From contig NC_044291.2 of the NCBI RefSeq assembly GCF_004027225.2, positions 10,524,707-10,588,706 on the forward strand: a stretch of DNA of 64,000 nt, given 5' to 3'. The stretch is from Strigops habroptila (Eukaryota > Chordata > Aves > Psittaciformes > Psittacidae). Positions 770 through 8,832 of the stretch are shown one piece after another; position 1 is the stretch's first letter; the number at the start of each line of letters is the position of its first letter. A program made the position numbers and the translations under genes. Below the pieces are notes generated by a model. That model saw nothing but the letters and a program-made list of their open reading frames with translations. It was not told where the DNA came from and did no database searches.

Positions 770-1090
770 GCGGTGTCTCCTTGCTCGGCCGGACCCTATC
801 CCTCGAGCTATCCCGATCTCCGGCCTCAAGGCAGCCCTATAAGAGGACGGGGTCGGGGACCGGGGGCCGGAGCCGGGGCGAATGCCCCGGCTCCAGTCCC
901 CCCGGTCCCCGACCCCGTCCCCAACACTCACCGGCCGCCGCGTCCTGCTCTGTCCGTATGGGTCTCCTCGCGCCCTCTCTCGATTTGCATAGTCCCGCCC
1001 CCTTATTAGCATAGATACGCCCACATGAGCGGGGTGGTGGCGGGAAGTCTCGCGCGAAATAGCGCGGGAAAGGGCTTGGAGGCGGGGTGG
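770..1090 (-). promoter_or_regulatory. CpG-rich promoter, probably with a non-coding first exon (candidate ALAD)
   Basis: The stretch is rich in CpG and has GC boxes (CCCGCCCCC), an octamer ATTTGCAT at about 983-990 and a second AT-rich TTAGCATA. On the minus strand a strong splice donor reads GGCCG|GTGAGTG, with the exon ending at 932, which suggests a first exon starting upstream at about 950-1000. In human the minus-strand gene next to the POLE3 3' end is ALAD, which has non-coding first exons, so ALAD is the synteny-based guess. No ALAD coding sequence is visible, so the gene identity is inference only. The plus side could also be transcribed. Confidence 0.45.
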
Positions 1091-1099
1091 TGAAGGACG

Positions 1100-2230
1100 G
1101 TGGGTGTAGGGGCGATATGAGGTGCTCGAGCAGGACTTTGGGGTCCCGTAGGGGCCGGGAAGTAGAGTTTGGCTATTACAGGAGAATCTGGAGTGAGGTT
1201 TTGGGATGCTGGAGGGGGCTGGAGCAGGGCTGGGAGTGCTATGGTGGCATGGAGCAGGGTTTTGGGGTGCTGGAGGAGCCTGGAGCAGAGCTCTGGGGGG
1301 CTGCAAAGGGCTGGAGCAGCACTTTGGGCTGCTGGGGGAGGTAAGGAGACAGGTTTTGGGGTGCTGTAGGGAAACCTGGAGCCAGGGTTTTGGGAGGGGG
1401 GCTGGAGTAGGACTTTGGAGTTCTGGGCAGCCAGGAGGTAGGTTTTAGGTTGCTGTGAAGAACCTTGAGTGAAGTTTTGGGGTGTTGGGGGGGAGCTGGA
1501 GCACAGCTGGAGGTGCTGGGGGGGGTAAGGAGGCAAATAGTGGGGTGCTGTGGTAGGATCTGGAGCCAGGTTTTGGGGTATTGAGGGGGTTTGAGCAGGG
1601 CTTTGTGGTGCTGGGGGGGTGATCAGGAGGCAGGTTTTGGGGTGCTGCAGTGGAACCTGGCTCCAGGTTTTGGGATTCTGGCGGGGCTGGAGCAGAGCTT
1701 TGGTGTAAGGAGCATGGCTGCGGGTGCTATGGTAGCATGGAGCAGGGTTTTGCAGCTCCATGGAGCTGCAGGAGCCTGGAGCAGAGCTCTAGGGTGCTGC
1801 AAAGGGCTGGAGCAGGGCTTTGGGGTGCTGGGGCGGGGGGTAAGGAAGCAGGTTTTGTGGTGCTGGGGAGAAAGGAGGCAGGGTTTGGGGTGCTGCAGGG
1901 GGATCTGGAGCCAGATTTGGGGGTTTGAGAGGGCTGCAGCAGGGTTTTGGGGTGCTGCTGGCATAAGGCAGCAGGGTTTAGGATGCTGTGGGGTGATCTG
2001 GAGCCAGGTTTTGGGGGTTTGAGGAGGCTGGAGCAGGGTTTTGGAGTTTGGGAGAAGGGCCTTGTGGTGCTGAGGGCGTCAGGAGGCAGGGTTTGGGGTG
2101 CTGTTGGGCAATCTGGAGCTAGGTTTCAGGATGCTGCTAGGGCTGGAGAAGGGCTTCAGGGTGCTGGGGCATAAGGAGCCAGGTTTTGGTGTGATGCAGG
2201 GGGACTTGGAGCCAGATTTTAGGTGCCTTT
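1100..2230. repeat. G-rich minisatellite with higher-order repeats
   Basis: About 1.1 kb is built from diverged units of roughly 30 bp related to GGAGCAGGGTTTTGGGGTGCTG. These alternate with units carrying AAGGAGGCAGG and ATCTGGAGCCAGG. A larger period is visible: the block at about 1228-1320 (GTGCTATGGTGGCATGGAGC, then AGCCTGGAGCAGAGCTCT and GCTGCAAAGGGCTGGAGCAG) recurs at about 1712-1817, so a roughly 490-bp segment was duplicated. Purine and G-run asymmetry removes stop codons, so long frames appear on both strands. They have no recognisable domain and are not called as genes. Confidence 0.85.
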
Positions 2231-2385
2231 TTGGGTTATCCTTCGCTGACTGGAAGGCTCCCGGTTTTCCAAGCCTCTGCGCTCCCCTCACTCCTGTCAC
2301 TCCAAGGCTGGGCTGCAGCAGCCTCCAGCCTCCCTTCACTCTCAGACATATCAATAGTTTGCTTCTGCCCTCTCCACAACTTCAT

Positions 2386-2391
2386 TTTATT
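2386..2391 (-). terminator. Candidate POLE3 polyadenylation signal (second of a pair)
   Basis: The minus strand reads AATAAA and is followed by a GTTGTGGAGAGGG-like downstream element. The signal is plausible as the distal cleavage signal of POLE3, with no transcript evidence. Confidence 0.4.
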
Positions 2392-2433
2392 ACTGACAGG
2401 AACAAGAGACTCCATTTGTGTAAAAAACTGGCT

Positions 2434-2439
2434 TTTATT
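2434..2439 (-). terminator. Candidate POLE3 polyadenylation signal (first of a pair)
   Basis: TTTATT on the plus strand is AATAAA on the minus strand. A second copy lies 48 bp further along the transcript at 2386-2391. Tandem signals are common at the ends of housekeeping genes. The assignment rests on position only. Confidence 0.4.
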
Positions 2440-3983
2440 TGGATATTGTTCCCTTCCAGAATATGCCACCGAGTGTGAAAGGAGAGGAAAAAAGAGGACA
2501 AAGAGCGAGCAGAAAGGCCTTTTTGTTATGGGGGATCTTGAGAAGACGCCGTCAGCTCCATCTGTTCATCTGACTGTGCATCACGAGGAACCAGGCAGCA
2601 CAAAACCTTTGTTGGTTCAGTTCTCTTCAGGAGCTGGGCTCTGCGTGTGCCAGGAAGGCACAAAGGTGAGAAGCTCTTGTGGGTGGTTCTGCGTCCATTT
2701 TGTGGTGAAAGGGACATTCTGTTCCTCACAAGTGCTGTTTTAAAACTGCAGATGAGCGAAACTCGGGGGTTTCATTTAAGCATACCTAAAACTTCCCTCA
2801 GGTTTCCCTTGTTAAGTTCAAATAGTAGGTTTATTAGTCTTCAAAAAGCTCAACTAATAAAGCACTTTTCCCAAAAGGGCCCTTATTCTAATGGATGCTT
2901 TCTCAGAGAGAGAAAGGCATCAAAACTAACAAGAAGTATAAAAGCACAAACCTACATGAGTACAAGGAACACAAACAGCTTGTTTCAGTCCGTCTGTCAT
3001 GAACGAGCTTTGGAAAGCCCCGGGCCTGAGGCTGCAGCCCCAGAGCCCAGCCGGAGGCAAGGCTGTGCCTCTGGGATGGCTGTTGAAGGCTATGGAAGGA
3101 CCTTTGAGCTAATTAGTCTGTTCCAATCAGGTGCAGAAAACAAACGTACTCAAGCCAACGAGATCCACCAGTTTTCTATCCCATTTAAACCCGCTGCAGC
3201 TCTGCAGGGGAGGGAGGTGAGACAGTGAGCTCCACTGTACACCCCAATACACAGCTCTGCTGTTCATTTTGCTTCAGATCCTAAACAAAATTCCTCCGGG
3301 TCTCCCAGGGCTTTAAAGACACAAAGCAGCACTTTCAGTATTCAGTTTACATCATAAAGTGCTGTGAAGTTTGTTCATTTGGGTGAGCAAGGTGAATGGG
3401 CCACTGGCCCTTGTGCAGTCGAGCCTCATTGCTGCACATGACTGATGTGGTTGAAAGACACAGTAGCTCTGCCAGAGTCACAGCAGGAGGAGAAGGCACA
3501 GCCAGAATGCAAGAAAATGAAGGAAAATAAAGCAAGTCACGGGGATAAAAGCTTCAGTGTTCAGCTTCCAAGCCCCCTGACATCATCAGGGAGATTCTAA
3601 ACCCCAAAGGGTTAATGACCTATTTGCTTCAGTGCCTGACATGCTTTAATGAGCTTATTCAGGTCTCTCAAGTTCTTGCTCCAGATATTTCTTCTGTCCT
3701 CTTATTTCAGAGCCAAGCCAGTGTGAAAAGCTCAGTTCTGTCACTGTTCAGACCCCGAGCACAGGGAGGAGGGGTCCTTCCACCAGAAAACCTTTAGCAG
3801 GAGTCCTTCACATCTGAGCAAAGCTTTAGCCAAAGTCCTTTATGTACAAGTTAAAGCCAAAAGAGAGAGGCTGCAGAAGAGCAGAGCAAAGCTCTACTGG
3901 AAGCAAGAGGGGACACAGCAGAGCTGATTTACAGCATTTAGAGCCCTCTGACCAAAACCCAGCCCCTGCACACATCAGTGAGC

Positions 3984-4144
3984 TCAGTTGTCCACCTCTT
4001 CCTCATCATTCTGCTCTTCTTCATCCATCCTTTCGTCATCATCATCATTCTCTTCCTCTCGGCTCTTATCCTGCTCCTCTGAGTCTGCCTTCTTGTCTTT
4101 GTCTTTCCTTGCTTCTTTCTTTCCTTTCTGCTCACGCCTGTAAA
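3984..4144 (-). CDS. POLE3: POLE3 exon 4 (C-terminal acidic tail and stop)
   Basis: The exon follows the acceptor TTTGTTAG and encodes [10 protein letters not shown] and a Lys/Asp/Glu-rich tail, with a run of four Asp, ending in VDN and a TGA stop at 3984-3986. The first codon is Val where human has Ala. Confidence 0.96.
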
Positions 4145-7100
4145 CTAACAAAGAGAAAGAGAACACTGAAAGATGACACGTTGGTGTCCCCACGGCACGA
4201 ACCACACAGCAGCTGGAGTCCCACGGCCACTTCAGGGGAGCAGTGACCCCACAGCAGCCACTCACCCTATGGTCTGAGCTGACCAGGAAATCAGGTTAAG
4301 TTTCAGCAGAAACCTGCTGAAAAGGATGCAGGAGCTCACATTTACAGGCAGCACCTAAGACTTCCCTTAGATAAACATAATAGGGGGGTGGCAGCAGATG
4401 AGACTTTCTCAATCCTCATCAGTTGTGACATACAATGTTATCCCAGTCCTGTTAGGGCGCACATTAGTTATCCCCAGGCAGTGTAGGATGCTGGGCAAAG
4501 AGAAGAGAAACAAGACAGGCAAGTAAGTGTTGCTTGTCCAGTGCTCGAGGAAAACAGGGCTTGATGCTATAGAGTCCCTCCATGTGAATGAGGCCTGTAC
4601 CTTCCAGTGATTCCTTCAGAGGGGTTACAAATCGCTGGAACTCCATCTCCTCCATGGCAGAGAGAACATCACCAGCATTCAGGGTTTTCCTCTTCCCCTT
4701 CATGGCAAAGTTATTTGCACTAGTCAAAAACAAGAAGTAAACAAGAGGGAATTGGTAACTGGCATCAGTTTAGTCTTGTTTATTAAAGTTACAAGCAACT
4801 TAAGAAAAAAACTCCATCTCTCAAACACGTGGGGTTTTGAATCTCCTACTGGCAGTTGAAGGCACCTCCTTGTCTACACTGGCTGTTTGTTGGCTGGACC
4901 TTTTCCGCAACCAGGGGGAAGGAGCAAGTCAGAACACTGGCTGCAGGGTGACAATTCCACAAAGCCATTCCATACCCGACACCAGGGCAGCAGCTGCCTG
5001 CACAGCATCTTCTGAGCTGCTCCAGGAGCGTTGCTGTGTGCTCTGGGCTGATAAGGTTGGCTCCCACTTGCCCTAAGCCTGCTGTGTAGGTAGCAGCCTG
5101 GAGAGGGAACCAAACGCTCCTCCCTTTCCTGGGAAAGGCCACGCAGCTGAGTTCTAAGGGAATGGCAGTCTGGGACCCCTTGTGTCCCTGGCAGGATGGG
5201 GTCTCCATGTCCAGAGCCCAAAACTGCCTTCCCTGGGGTAAGTGAAGAGCAGCCTGAACCCCACTGCTGTGATCTGGTAAACTGGGCAGCACTAAAGATT
5301 GTTTGGCTGATTGTCCTGGGTTCAGCTATAGCAGTCATTTTTCTCCTGCTTAGTAGCTGGTGCAGTGCTGTGTTTTTTAACTTTCAGCCTGGGAACAACG
5401 CTGATAACACCGATGTTTTTAGTTGTTGCTAAGTAATGTTTATTCCAACCAAGGACTTTCTCAGTCTCATGCTTTGCCAGGGAGGAGGGGAAGCCGGGAG
5501 GAAGCAGAGACAGGACACCTGACCCAAACTAGCCAAAGGGGTATTCCATACCACAGCACGTCATGCCCAGTATATAAACCGGGGGGAGTTACCCGGAAGG
5601 CCCAGATCACTGCTCGGGTCGGGCTGGGTATCGGTCGGCGGGTGGTGAGCAATTGTATCCTCTCCCCTTGTTATTTCACTAATCATTATTATCACTGGTG
5701 GTAGCAGTAGTGGTTTTGTGTTATACCTTAGTTGCGGGACTGCTCTTATCTCAACCCATGGGAGTTACATTCTTCCCATTCTCCTCCCCATCCCTCCGGG
5801 AGCGGGGGGAGGAAGGGGGGTGGGGGGGGAGTGAGCGAGCGGCTGTGTGGTTCTGAGTTACCGGCTGGGCTCAAACCACGACAGCTGGGTATTTCTACTC
5901 CTGTATCAAAAACTGCTGATATTTGCTGTAGGTAAGGAAATGGTTCAGCATTACAGGCCATCTTTCAGAATGTTGTCATATAATGCATCTCAGGAGCACC
6001 GGGTTCTCTCTAACTCTCCCGATACCACCACTATCAATACTGATTTAGCCTTCTCACTCTTTTAAGTACAACAACCCCATAAAGCATTCAGCCCTAAGAA
6101 GGCAGCTGGCTCCTACCCCTTTTCAAACCCACGCCATCGAAATGACTGGAGCTTGCCCCTGTTCCAGTGCAGTCTGGATCAATCCATGGCAGATGGTAGG
6201 GCTGTGTTTCCACCCCTGGGGCAGTTGGTTCCAAGTGTACTGGACGCCCCTCCAAGTGAAAGCAAACTGTGGCCTGCATTCTGCTGCCAAAGGGATTGAG
6301 AAAAATGCATTGGCAATGTCAATTGTGGCATACCACTTGGCTGCCTTTGACTCCAGTTCATACTGAAGTTCTAACATGTCCGGTACGGCAGCACTCAATG
6401 GTGGTGTGACTTCGTTCAGGCCACGATAGTCTACTGTTAATCTCCACTCTCCATTAGACTTTTGCACTGGAACAGGGGCAAGCTCCAGTCATTTCGATGG
6501 CGTGGGTTTGAAAAGGGGTAGGAGCCAGCTGCCTTCTTAGGGCTGAATGCTTTATGGGGTTGTTGTACTTAAAAGAGTGAGAAGGCTGAATCAGTATTGA
6601 TAGTGGTGGTATCGGGAGAGTTAGAGAGAACCCGGTGCTCCTGAGATGCATTATATGACAACATTCTGAAAGATGGCCTGTAATGCTGAACCATTTCCTT
6701 ACCTACAGCAAATATCAGCAGTTTTTGATACAGGAGTAGAAATACCCAGCTGTCGTGGTTTGAGCCCAGCCGGTAACTCAGAACCACACAGCCGCTCGCT
6801 CACTCCCCCCCCCCCCCCCTTCCTCCCCCTGCTCCCGGAGGGATGGGGAGGAGAATGGGAAGAATGTAACTCCCACGGGTTGAGATAAGAGCAGTCCCGC
6901 AACTAAGGTATAACACAAAACCACTACTGCTACCACCAGTGATAATAATGATTAGTGAAATAACAAGGGGAGAGGATACAATTGCTCACCACCCGCCGAC
7001 CGATACCCAGCCCGACCCGAGCAGTGATCTGGGCCTTCCGGGTAACTCCCCCCGGTTTATATACTGGGCATGACGTGCTGTGGTATGGAATACCCCTTTG

Positions 7101-8832
7101 GCTAGTTTGGGTCAGGTGTCCTGTCTCTGCTTCCTCCCGGCTTCCCCTCCTCCCTGGCAAAGCATGAGACTGAGAAAGTCCTTGGTTGGAATAAACATTA
7201 CTTAGCAACAACTAAAAACATCGGTGTTATCAGCGTTGTTCCCAGGCTGAAAGTTAAAAAACACAGCACTGCACCAGCTACTAAGAAGGAGAAAAATGAC
7301 TGCTATAGCTGAACCCAGGACACTGATACAGACAATCCCAGCCTGGTTTGGGCTGGAAGGGACCTTAAGGCTCCTCCAGTTCCAACCCCCTGCCACAGAC
7401 AGGGACACCTTCCACTAGAGCAGGTTGCTCCAAGCCCCTGTGTCCAACCTGGCCTTGAACACTGCCAGAGATGGGGCAGCCACAGCTTCTCTGGGCACCC
7501 TGTGCCAGCGCCTCAGCACCCTCACAGGGAAGAGCTTCTGCCTAAGAGCTCATCTCAATCTCCCCTCTGGCAGGTTAAAGCCATTCCCCTTGTCCTGTCC
7601 CTACAGGCCCTTGTCCAAAGCCCCTCTCCAGGTTTCCTGGAGCCCCTTTAGGCACTGGAGCTACTCTAAGGTCTCCTCTTCAGGAGCCTTCTCTTCTCCA
7701 GGCTGACCCAGCCCAGCTCTCTCAGCCTGGCTCCAGAGCAGAGCTGCTCCAGCCCTCAGAGAATCAATCTGTTAACAGACACTGGGAATAAAACCAACTC
7801 TCCAGGACAGCCAGCACTGAGGTGAATTACAAATCAAGAGCACTGGTTATGTGGTGCAACAAATTCTTACCATGATGTTGCATAAAGCACAAACACACTC
7901 GCTGCTCGCGATATCGCGCTCCGAGCTTCTTTAGAGATGTTCACTCCATCAGGAAGCTGAAAAACAAATTAAACTTTTATCATCAGCTGCTAGAAATGAC
8001 TTAAACATTCATAATTCACGTGTCAGCCCCATTAAGGCATTCAAGGGGCTCAGCCTAACTGGAGGTGAAGCAGTGATCTCTGTCATTTTCACAACAACTT
8101 TGATGCCAGCTGGAAGCCAACCTCTGACCACATTGTCCTAAATGCAATGAGCTACACGGGAGTGAAAAAACGTCTGGATCAGGGGTGGGTTTGAGCACCA
8201 TCTCCAGGGCAATTTGTCTGATGACTCCCAAGTTCCCGATACTGGCTGATCCCTGAACACATCTGAATCCATCTGGCCACAGCTCAATGCGTAGGACCAA
8301 ACACACCACCAGTGACTGGGGATTAGAACCACATACTGGATTGTGTTGGAAGGGACCTTAAAGCTTACCCAGTTCCAATCCCCTGCCACGGGCAGGGACA
8401 CCTTCCACTAGAGCAGGTTGCTCCAAGCCCCTGTGTCCAACCTGGCCTTGAACACTGCCAGGGATGGGGCAGCCACAGCTTCTCTGGGCACCCTGTGCCA
8501 GCGCCCCAGCACCCTCCACGGGGAATTACCCCACATTCCCACCAGGACCCGGTTCCCTTCGCTGCCCGGACACAGCCACAGTGCCCCGGGGCTGCGCTGC
8601 CGCCGCCGAGCGGGACCGGGGGGTCGGGGCCGTCCCTCCCGCACCCCCCCCGGGACCTGGGCTCGTTCTGAGCAGCCAAACAGCAGCTCAGCGGAGCCCC
8701 TGCAGGGGCTGCCCGCGGAGAACTCGCTCCCCTCCACCCTGGTGCCCCCCCGGGCCCGGCACCCACCGCCTCCTTGATGATGCGGGTGATGACGGCGTTG
8801 GGCAGGTTCAGGTCCTCCGGTCTCTCCGCCAT
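3984..8832 (-). CDS. POLE3: POLE3, DNA polymerase epsilon histone-fold subunit 3 (four exons, complete)
   Basis: Small histone-fold protein that pairs with POLE4 in DNA polymerase epsilon and also serves as the CHRAC17 subunit of the ISWI chromatin-remodelling complex; nuclear. Exons on the minus strand are 8767-8832, 7871-7956, 4601-4719 and 3984-4144. All junctions have GT/AG and phases agree, giving 432 nt, or 143 aa plus stop, against 147 aa in human from memory. Residues 1-22 ([20 protein letters not shown]...) begin the fold, residues 23-90 complete it ([20 protein letters not shown]), and the C-terminal third is a charged, D/E-rich tail ending EEEVDN. The tail is slightly shorter than in human. 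Intron 2 hosts the palindromic ERV. The gene is divergent from RGS3 and driven by the CpG island above its start. Confidence 0.97.
4145..4600 (-). other. POLE3 intron 3
   Basis: The 456-bp intron has no recognised repeat or gene. Confidence 0.9.
4601..4719 (-). CDS. POLE3: POLE3 exon 3
   Basis: The exon begins after ACTAG, completes the split Cys codon and encodes [20 protein letters not shown], then [19 protein letters not shown]. These are the last histone-fold helices. The donor is GAAG|GTACAG. Confidence 0.96.
5307..5311. repeat. Target-site duplication, left copy (CTGAT)
   Basis: Five bases CTGAT directly abut the left TG terminus of the palindromic ERV. The same five bases lie at 7323-7327 directly after its right CA terminus. 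A 5-bp duplication is typical of several ERV classes. Confidence 0.9.
5312..5883 (+). repeat. ERV LTR, left copy, plus orientation
   Basis: The 572-bp LTR starts TGTCCTGGG and ends CACGACA. A TATA box, TATATAA, is at 5571-5577, so U3 is to the left and transcription from it would point into the element. A G-rich tract lies at about 5804-5829. No convincing tRNA primer-binding site follows the LTR end. Confidence 0.92.
5884..6171 (+). repeat. ERV internal sequence, left arm
   Basis: About 288 bp between the LTR end and the loop are repeated inversely at 6463-6750. Frames contain several stops and no recognisable gag. The element therefore lost nearly everything between the LTR and pol before, or together with, palindrome formation. 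Confidence 0.85.
6123..6467 (-). pseudogene. ERV reverse transcriptase fragment (ERV-L-like pol)
   Basis: The minus strand encodes the N-terminal palm and fingers part of a retroviral reverse transcriptase. Visible blocks are [10 protein letters not shown], the first catalytic Asp motif in [12 protein letters not shown], and [14 protein letters not shown]. This block combination resembles ERV-L (class III) elements; the class call is moderate. The RT-like reading stops near 6150, where the sequence runs into the inverted left arm. The YxDD active-site motif and everything after it are therefore missing. The fragment is non-functional. It reads in the same direction as POLE3. Confidence 0.9.
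6463..6750 (-). repeat. ERV internal sequence, right arm
   Basis: Inverse copy of 5884-6171. It runs collinearly into the reverse transcriptase fragment, so this arm preserves the original order: LTR, short remnant, pol. Confidence 0.85.
6751..7322 (-). repeat. ERV LTR, right copy, minus orientation
   Basis: The exact inverse counterpart of the left LTR, also 572 bp. The TATA box on the minus strand is at 7057-7063. The polyC tract at about 6805-6819 (15 C) is interrupted in the left copy by one T. The promoter also points into the element, so the two LTR promoters converge. Confidence 0.92.
7323..7327. repeat. Target-site duplication, right copy (CTGAT)
   Basis: Perfect match to 5307-5311, directly after the terminal CA of the ERV. 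Confidence 0.9.
7331..7758 (-). mobile_element. CR1 fragment, minus orientation, next to the ERV
   Basis: It starts within about ten bases of the ERV target site with ATCCCAGCCTGG and extends to AGAGCTGCTCCAGCCCTCAG. The sequence left of the ERV is not CR1, so the retrovirus landed just at the 3' edge of a pre-existing CR1. Confidence 0.9.
7871..7956 (-). CDS. POLE3: POLE3 exon 2
   Basis: Eighty-six nt begin after TTTCAG and encode [20 protein letters not shown], then VFVLYATS, the central histone-fold helix. The donor is ATG|GTAAGA and the exon leaves two bases of a Cys codon. Confidence 0.96.
8333..8519 (-). mobile_element. CR1 fragment in POLE3 intron 1, minus orientation
   Basis: The 3' part of a CR1 starts at about 8333 (ACTGGATTGTGTTGGAAGGGA) and breaks off at CAGCACCCTCC. 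The CpG-island sequence that contains exon 1 begins directly after it. The missing next part of the same consensus appears at 9215-9445 on the far side of the promoter. Confidence 0.88.

Follow-up and report, generated by a model that had tools for sequence, protein, structure and literature searches.

Positions 5307-7327 of the window (the whole 64,000-nt stretch of DNA analysed here, C16:10524707-10588706 in a 1.15-Gb genome) are probably the product of a single germline insertion of aberrant palindromic retroviral DNA, formed by snap-back and integrated through two U3 ends. From left to right the unit consists of CTGAT, an LTR on the + strand, an inner arm, a 291-bp loop, the mirrored inner arm, an LTR on the - strand and again CTGAT; it measures 2,011 bp between the duplications, and the whole insertion, counting one CTGAT, 2,016 bp.

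Architecture of the unit and of its ERV family

The left target-site duplication, CTGAT (5307-5311), is followed by a complete LTR of 572 bp (5312-5883, + strand; TGTCC...CGACA), with U3 outside and U5 inside; no primer binding site follows its U5 end. The right LTR (6751-7322, - strand), also 572 bp long with U3 outside, has four differences from the left one and is followed by the right target-site duplication, CTGAT (7323-7327). These LTRs are the outer parts of two inverted arms of 860 bp each (left 5312-6171, right 6463-7322), which align with five mismatches and no gap (left/right: 5348 G/T, 5758 A/G, 5804 G/A, 5821 T/G and 6046 T/C) and enclose the loop (6172-6462). Inside the right LTR, the inner arm (6463-6750, - strand) carries the RT end, a junction stretch and a host segment, all mirrored from the left. 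Automated repeat detection returned arms of 875 nt at 99%, because its alignment extends ~15 bases into weakly matching flanks; the outer flanks of the unit differ from each other.

On re-alignment, the coordinates given in the preliminary description for the unit, LTRs, arms, loop and CTGAT proved exact to the base. Sequence comparison likewise bore out its two 572-bp head-to-head LTRs within 860-bp inverted arms, and its perfect CTGAT around the whole unit with U3 at both outer termini. Its label "pol" for the loop is right (Pfam RVT_1, E 4.4e-16); the arm inside the LTR is mostly host DNA. Three features had been passed over: the segment captured from C26, the opposite orientations of RT (antisense) and the LTR next to it (sense), and the position of the turn on an 8-nt inverted repeat.

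The polarity of the LTRs was read from other members of the family. With the first LTR query, the best 40 of 2,189 candidates were scored (98-100% identity) and the surroundings of all 40 were fetched, namely those of the window's own two LTRs and of 38 others. Manual sorting of these 38 loci gave 15 solo LTRs, 20 5' LTRs with a primer binding site and three 3' LTRs (L009, L024 and L031). In the 20 5' LTRs (of the 38 loci) the ...CGACA end adjoins the primer binding site, which is of tRNA type (TGGCGCCCAACGTGGGGC or near variants). The TGTCC end, on the other hand, is preceded by a purine-rich stretch in five of six LTR upstream stretches (L050, L059, L061, L062 and L063), the sixth, upstream of the rearranged L009, having none; before ordinary 3' LTRs this stretch ends in GGGGTGGATAC, and in L059 in GAGGTGGATAC. 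Thus TGTCC is the U3 end, and both outer ends of the unit are U3. Ordinary copies of the family have direct LTRs, with U3 at one end and U5 at the other.

Duplications of 5 bp are the norm in this family: they are perfect in 14 of the 15 solo LTRs (four of five bases agree in the remaining one) and are present in all four proviruses whose two ends were compared (L004/L061, L011/L062, L015/L063 and L038/L059), as well as around the rearranged element L064/L009. CTGAT itself also stands directly before six other fetched LTRs (L003, L009, L011, L015, L026 and L027), but such places were favoured by the first LTR query, which carried CTGAT. We rejected CTGAT as viral sequence adjoining a 3' LTR, the wider flanks being different between loci. 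The U3 tip (TGTCCTGG) and the U5 tip (TGTCGTGG) are alike at seven of eight bases, so that integrase may distinguish them only little.

The family appears to be young and class III-like (ERVL/foamy-like). This label rests on the RVT_1 match together with the best five PDB matches of the loop, which are PR-RT entries labelled Pr125Pol and Peptidase A9/RT/RNase H and which we take to be from foamy virus.

Several copies showed peculiarities of their own. In L003, L004, L010 and others, eight bases (GTTCTTTT) separate the CA end of the LTR from the primer binding site, where a few are usual; if the primer binding site is used as it seems to be, integrase would have to trim more than two bases. 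In the 3' LTR of L024 (2001-2573, + strand), the last U5 bases (GGCTCAAACCACGACA) are repeated once just downstream. The short rearranged element L064/L009 (C4:45228332-45231358), whose matching duplications are CAGTG, has in order a 5' LTR, a discontinuity close to the primer binding site, a shortened RT, a piece of the 5' leader and a 3' LTR, with no normal polypurine tract; it is another inserted product of several template switches.

The captured host segment and the turn

About 250 of the 288 bp inside each LTR are non-viral, and the last 26-27 bp match the ERV. The non-viral part (5884-6138, + strand) abuts the left LTR exactly at its CA end and is 98% identical to C26:18583473-18583726. 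A whole-genome search with 5884-6145 found the segment at three places, namely the two arms and this C26 source, with no further copies. When 5884-6145 was compared with fetched loci, among them three stretches spanning one provirus, its longest-scoring match covered only 34 bp (E 0.064), at a place beyond the 3' end of a provirus. At the C26 site the sequence continues as plain host DNA, and no ERV was found in 5.5 kb around it by comparison with the three stretches of one provirus; the source thus carries no LTR in the present assembly. The segment has no Pfam or PDB match that would give it a protein identity.

At the joint, the unit reads CGACA followed by GCTGGG and the C26 source CAGCA followed by GCTGGG, CA being common to both. 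Two routes could have led to this exact CA joint: i) a read-through RNA from a provirus formerly inserted at C26, which predicts a GCTGG duplication that is absent from the present assembly; or ii) a template switch over the 2-nt overlap. The first route would imply a lost or polymorphic LTR at C26:18583460-18583490, ending GCTGGGTATT and accompanied by GCTGG, and this one step could be tested by genotyping. Swain and Coffin are said to have modelled retroviral transduction of host sequence via read-through RNA, and the unit resembles such transduction in that host sequence follows immediately on an LTR's U5 end. Classical transduction, however, leads to sense virus after the host piece, whereas the RT in the window is antisense, so that a polarity-changing switch is needed. 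Two other origins of the joint were rejected: splicing of the LTR to a host exon, as the joint lies 2 nt off the expectation for splicing from the LTR tip (the C26 source has a splice-site-like TTCAG immediately before the segment), and autointegration, with the U5 end joined to pol, as the sequence inside the LTR is of host origin.

The host segment ends near 6138, past one changed and one inserted base, and RT starts at 6145. Between them lies a junction stretch of uncertain source (6127-6144, + strand, ~18 nt), the first part of which overlaps the host segment; it would be 7 nt instead if the overlapping part is assigned to the host segment, at the cost of one changed base and one insertion. 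It had no match in the loci with which it was compared. Both arms share one change against the C26 source, and at 6046 the right arm has the source base while the left arm departs from it.

From 6145 the + strand reads through a single, uninterrupted piece of antisense RT (6145-6470, - strand; Pfam RVT_1). This antisense strand reaches TGCACTGG (6463-6470), where copying turned back, and from there on is complementary to what lies earlier in the strand. With CCAGTGCA at 6164-6171 as the first copy and TGCACTGG as the second, the turn is located exactly on an 8-nt inverted repeat. The parental sense strand has ...GGCCAGTGCAAAAGTC... and, ~300 nt further, ...GACTGCACTGGAACAGG...; both copies of the repeat are present in all 17 proviral slices that retain the region, and an 18th slice, L050, has the first copy only. 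As 61 8-nt inverted pairs not more than 700 bp apart occur in one 3.5-kb proviral slice, such repeats are common: the repeat marks the turn and fits self-priming, and is no proof of it. A natural 26-bp inverted repeat in RT was considered and rejected, the parental repeat being 8 nt and the remainder copy-back.

Arm identity and origin of the palindrome

The two LTRs of the unit share uncommon bases. Both have A5685, found in three of 42 other LTRs, and C5695, found in five of the 42, and only L016 and L031 among these 42 have the two together; G5816 and G5817 are also common to both arms (four and five of the 42), at the edge of a G-run where the alignment is unsure. At each of the four differing LTR sites, one arm has the majority base of the family: the left departs from it at 5758 and 5821, the right at 5348 and 5804, and the departing bases are found in 4, 2, 0 and 1 of the 42 other LTRs. 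This pattern fits arms that were identical at birth, which the comparison supports without proving it. The left-arm base A5758 also occurs in L005, L007, L008 and L024 (four of the 42), and L005 is by pairwise count the nearest to the left LTR (two mismatches, against six from the right LTR), while L016 has three mismatches from each of the window's LTRs. Weighing the majority-base pattern against the link to L005, a single LTR template for both arms is favoured by the alignment and two templates are possible. Separately, the provirus L016 + L048 (C3:57628496-57634169), whose LTR carries the window's uncommon bases, has a family match that covers the leader and 67 bp of the 3' region and is then lost.

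The LTR pairs of five other elements have 0-4 differences per ~571 bp and the window pair has four per 572, suggesting that the palindrome is about as young as those elements. With general bird rates, the 5 differences in 860 bp would put the insertion at about 0.9-1.5 million years (95% range 0.3-3.6). Gene conversion could have kept the arms alike, in which case this estimate is too young.

Retroviral plus-strand synthesis starts at the polypurine tract, on the U3 side. The 5' end of the plus strand is therefore the U3 tip, and a plus strand that copies back to its own 5' end would have U3 at both outer tips; snap-back of the minus strand would instead place the U5 side outward. For the unit we infer a plus-strand origin, re-priming, a role of integrase and the following order of template switches: i) plus-strand DNA would have been initiated at the polypurine tract and would have copied the whole LTR; ii) the same strand would have run into ~250 nt of host sequence from C26; iii) it would then have switched to a sense RT template, yielding antisense RT; iv) its 3' end, TGCACTGG, would have annealed to CCAGTGCA, located 291 nt upstream in this strand; v) with the strand as its own template, synthesis would have continued to the U3 start; vi) retained polypurine-tract RNA may have re-primed synthesis and opened the hairpin into a linear duplex that has U3 at either end; and vii) integrase would have processed both U3 ends and joined them in one concerted step, producing the CTGAT duplication. 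That integrase made both joints is suggested by the exact LTR ends together with the target-site duplication. Snap-back before insertion also has weak points: the hairpin that snap-back produces has a single duplex end, so that the two-ended form would depend on the putative re-priming; the strand would have had to switch templates two or three times before it snapped back; and the expected C26 source provirus is absent from the assembly. Nonetheless the target-site duplication, the two U3 ends and the mirrored host segment support, as most likely, the proposal of the preliminary description that a self-complementary DNA formed before insertion.

A different account would have integrase join the U3 ends of two viral DNAs at once, with host repair patching the inner ends: the repair would have copied host sequence, added RT, folded back and closed through its homology to the second LTR. 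No read-through RNA is needed in this account to explain the C26 segment. It permits two slightly different LTR templates (as at 5758) and has a precedent, since aberrant HIV integrations with one end apparently joined by host enzymes are reported to take up sequence from other chromosomes (PMC5041404). More independent steps are needed, however, and since the arms mirror each other including the host joint, copy-back is required in this account too; we consider it unlikely.

We think it highly improbable that a normal provirus or a solo LTR inserted at CTGAT and afterwards acquired its present form there through template switching during replication. As the U3 and U5 tips (TGTCCTGG and TGTCGTGG) are alike at seven of eight bases, a switch at the right tip could have left the target-site duplication, but it must have hit the last few bases of the element exactly, and the host segment must have come from another contig. 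The chance of a fold-back artefact of assembly or library is very slight: fold-back reads are a known sequencing artefact, yet such a read would mirror the flank too, while the unit has unlike outer flanks, a matching 5-bp duplication and five differences between its arms. Scarcely credible is an origin from two ordinary, oppositely oriented insertions that later underwent a deletion or an inversion, a course of events which seemingly occurs in the family (the inverted pair at C2:52049434-52050579) but disagrees with the one duplication around the whole unit and with the uncommon bases common to both LTRs, and leaves the mirrored C26 segment unexplained; recombination between two insertions, doubted from the start, is indeed unlikely on the single target-site duplication, the shared bases and the mirrored segment.

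Frequency, precedents and meaning

For a survey of inverted pairs, eight LTR queries were run and the best 40 of 773-4,189 candidates were taken for each. Once eight partial rows had been removed, the full-length rows numbered 321 and stood for 256 distinct places; with five LTRs from the fetched loci the total was 261 LTR places, a lower bound that is biased to copies near the queries. Among these 261 places, neighbouring LTRs less than 12 kb apart were direct in 34 of 36 cases (19 of the 34 direct pairs being spaced 6.33-6.37 kb) and inverted in two, namely the window unit and C2:52049434-52050579. None of the 38 other LTRs fetched with the first query had an inverted partner within 1.5-2 kb on either side.

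The C2 pair belongs to a locus (L070/L071, C2:52042517-52050579) that consists of a provirus and an inverted LTR of another subfamily. Its right LTR is 95% identical to the left one and up to 98% identical to other LTRs. The left flank ends in ...CATGAGGGTGTCTGGGTTC, the seven bases CACCCTC lie between the LTRs, and the right flank starts with GGGTGGTGAGG. We favour an origin of this pair from two insertions that overlapped, one with the duplication GAGGG and the other with GGGTG, and a later LTR-LTR inversion; this involves one lost base at the left tip and accounts for CACCCTC as the complement of GAGGGTG. Less favoured is a second two-U3 unit with GGGTG on both sides, which involves three lost left-tip bases and leaves CACCCTC and the two subfamilies unaccounted for. 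Elsewhere, short inverted LTR fragments adjoin full LTRs at C25:18366381-18366441 and C25:20680726-20680773; these are possibly small fold-backs or nested copies.

The search for inverted LTR pairs that was first suggested yielded, in this genome, one other pair in 261 places, itself more probably two insertions. Of the overall interpretation in the preliminary description, the single unit with one 5-bp duplication and two U3 ends stands. With the host segment at three places and one other inverted pair per 261 LTR places, a distinct repeated class is unsupported so far.

The nearest known case is a Moloney murine leukemia virus (M-MLV) provirus with inverted LTRs, which Colicelli and Goff (1988) reportedly described, in the words of their title, as integration utilizing two U3 sequences. 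As far as that title goes, the window unit is alike in having inverted LTRs in one unit with two U3 ends: it has inverted LTRs, U3 cut at its exact tip and a duplication of the length usual in its family. It is unlike the murine provirus, as titled, in belonging to a class III-like ERV of the germline, in having captured host DNA and in showing an 8-nt repeat at its turn.

The snapback of adeno-associated virus involves no integrase and no 5-bp duplication. This virus also differs from the window unit in kind, polymerase and ends. The likeness lies in DNA genomes of a snapback, double-stranded form (PMC8235507). Inverted LTRs are shared with DIRS-type retrotransposons, DIRS-1 having, in addition, a tyrosine recombinase and circular intermediates (PMC5633606). 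Unlike DIRS, the window unit has a 5-bp duplication, and the ordinary members of its family have direct LTRs (34 of 36 pairs). A literature search by titles and the openings of abstracts, whose coverage excluded most subscription journals, found no animal-germline counterpart, which at that coverage is weak evidence of novelty.

The unit has the look of a rare accident, one for which there is a precedent from the laboratory, and is an instructive single event, the evidence falling short of a new class. It offers natural germline evidence, at base level, that a retroviral integrase can probably integrate a DNA whose ends are both U3; it also indicates that snap-back of a retroviral strand can take place, and it suggests a route by which host sequence may be moved to a new place as an inverted repeat. 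A stronger proposal is that reverse transcription in this ERV family regularly takes a side-path of plus-strand snap-back and re-priming from the polypurine tract; this seems to us distinctly doubtful. Were it true, linear DNAs with two U3 ends would be accepted by integrase as readily as normal ones, and host segments would be relocated as inverted repeats that could yield double-stranded RNA.

Around the unit, the window holds at 7338-7700, to the right of the insertion, what resembles a CR1 repeat, and at 1183-1702 a tandem array of 5.5 copies of a 97-bp unit.
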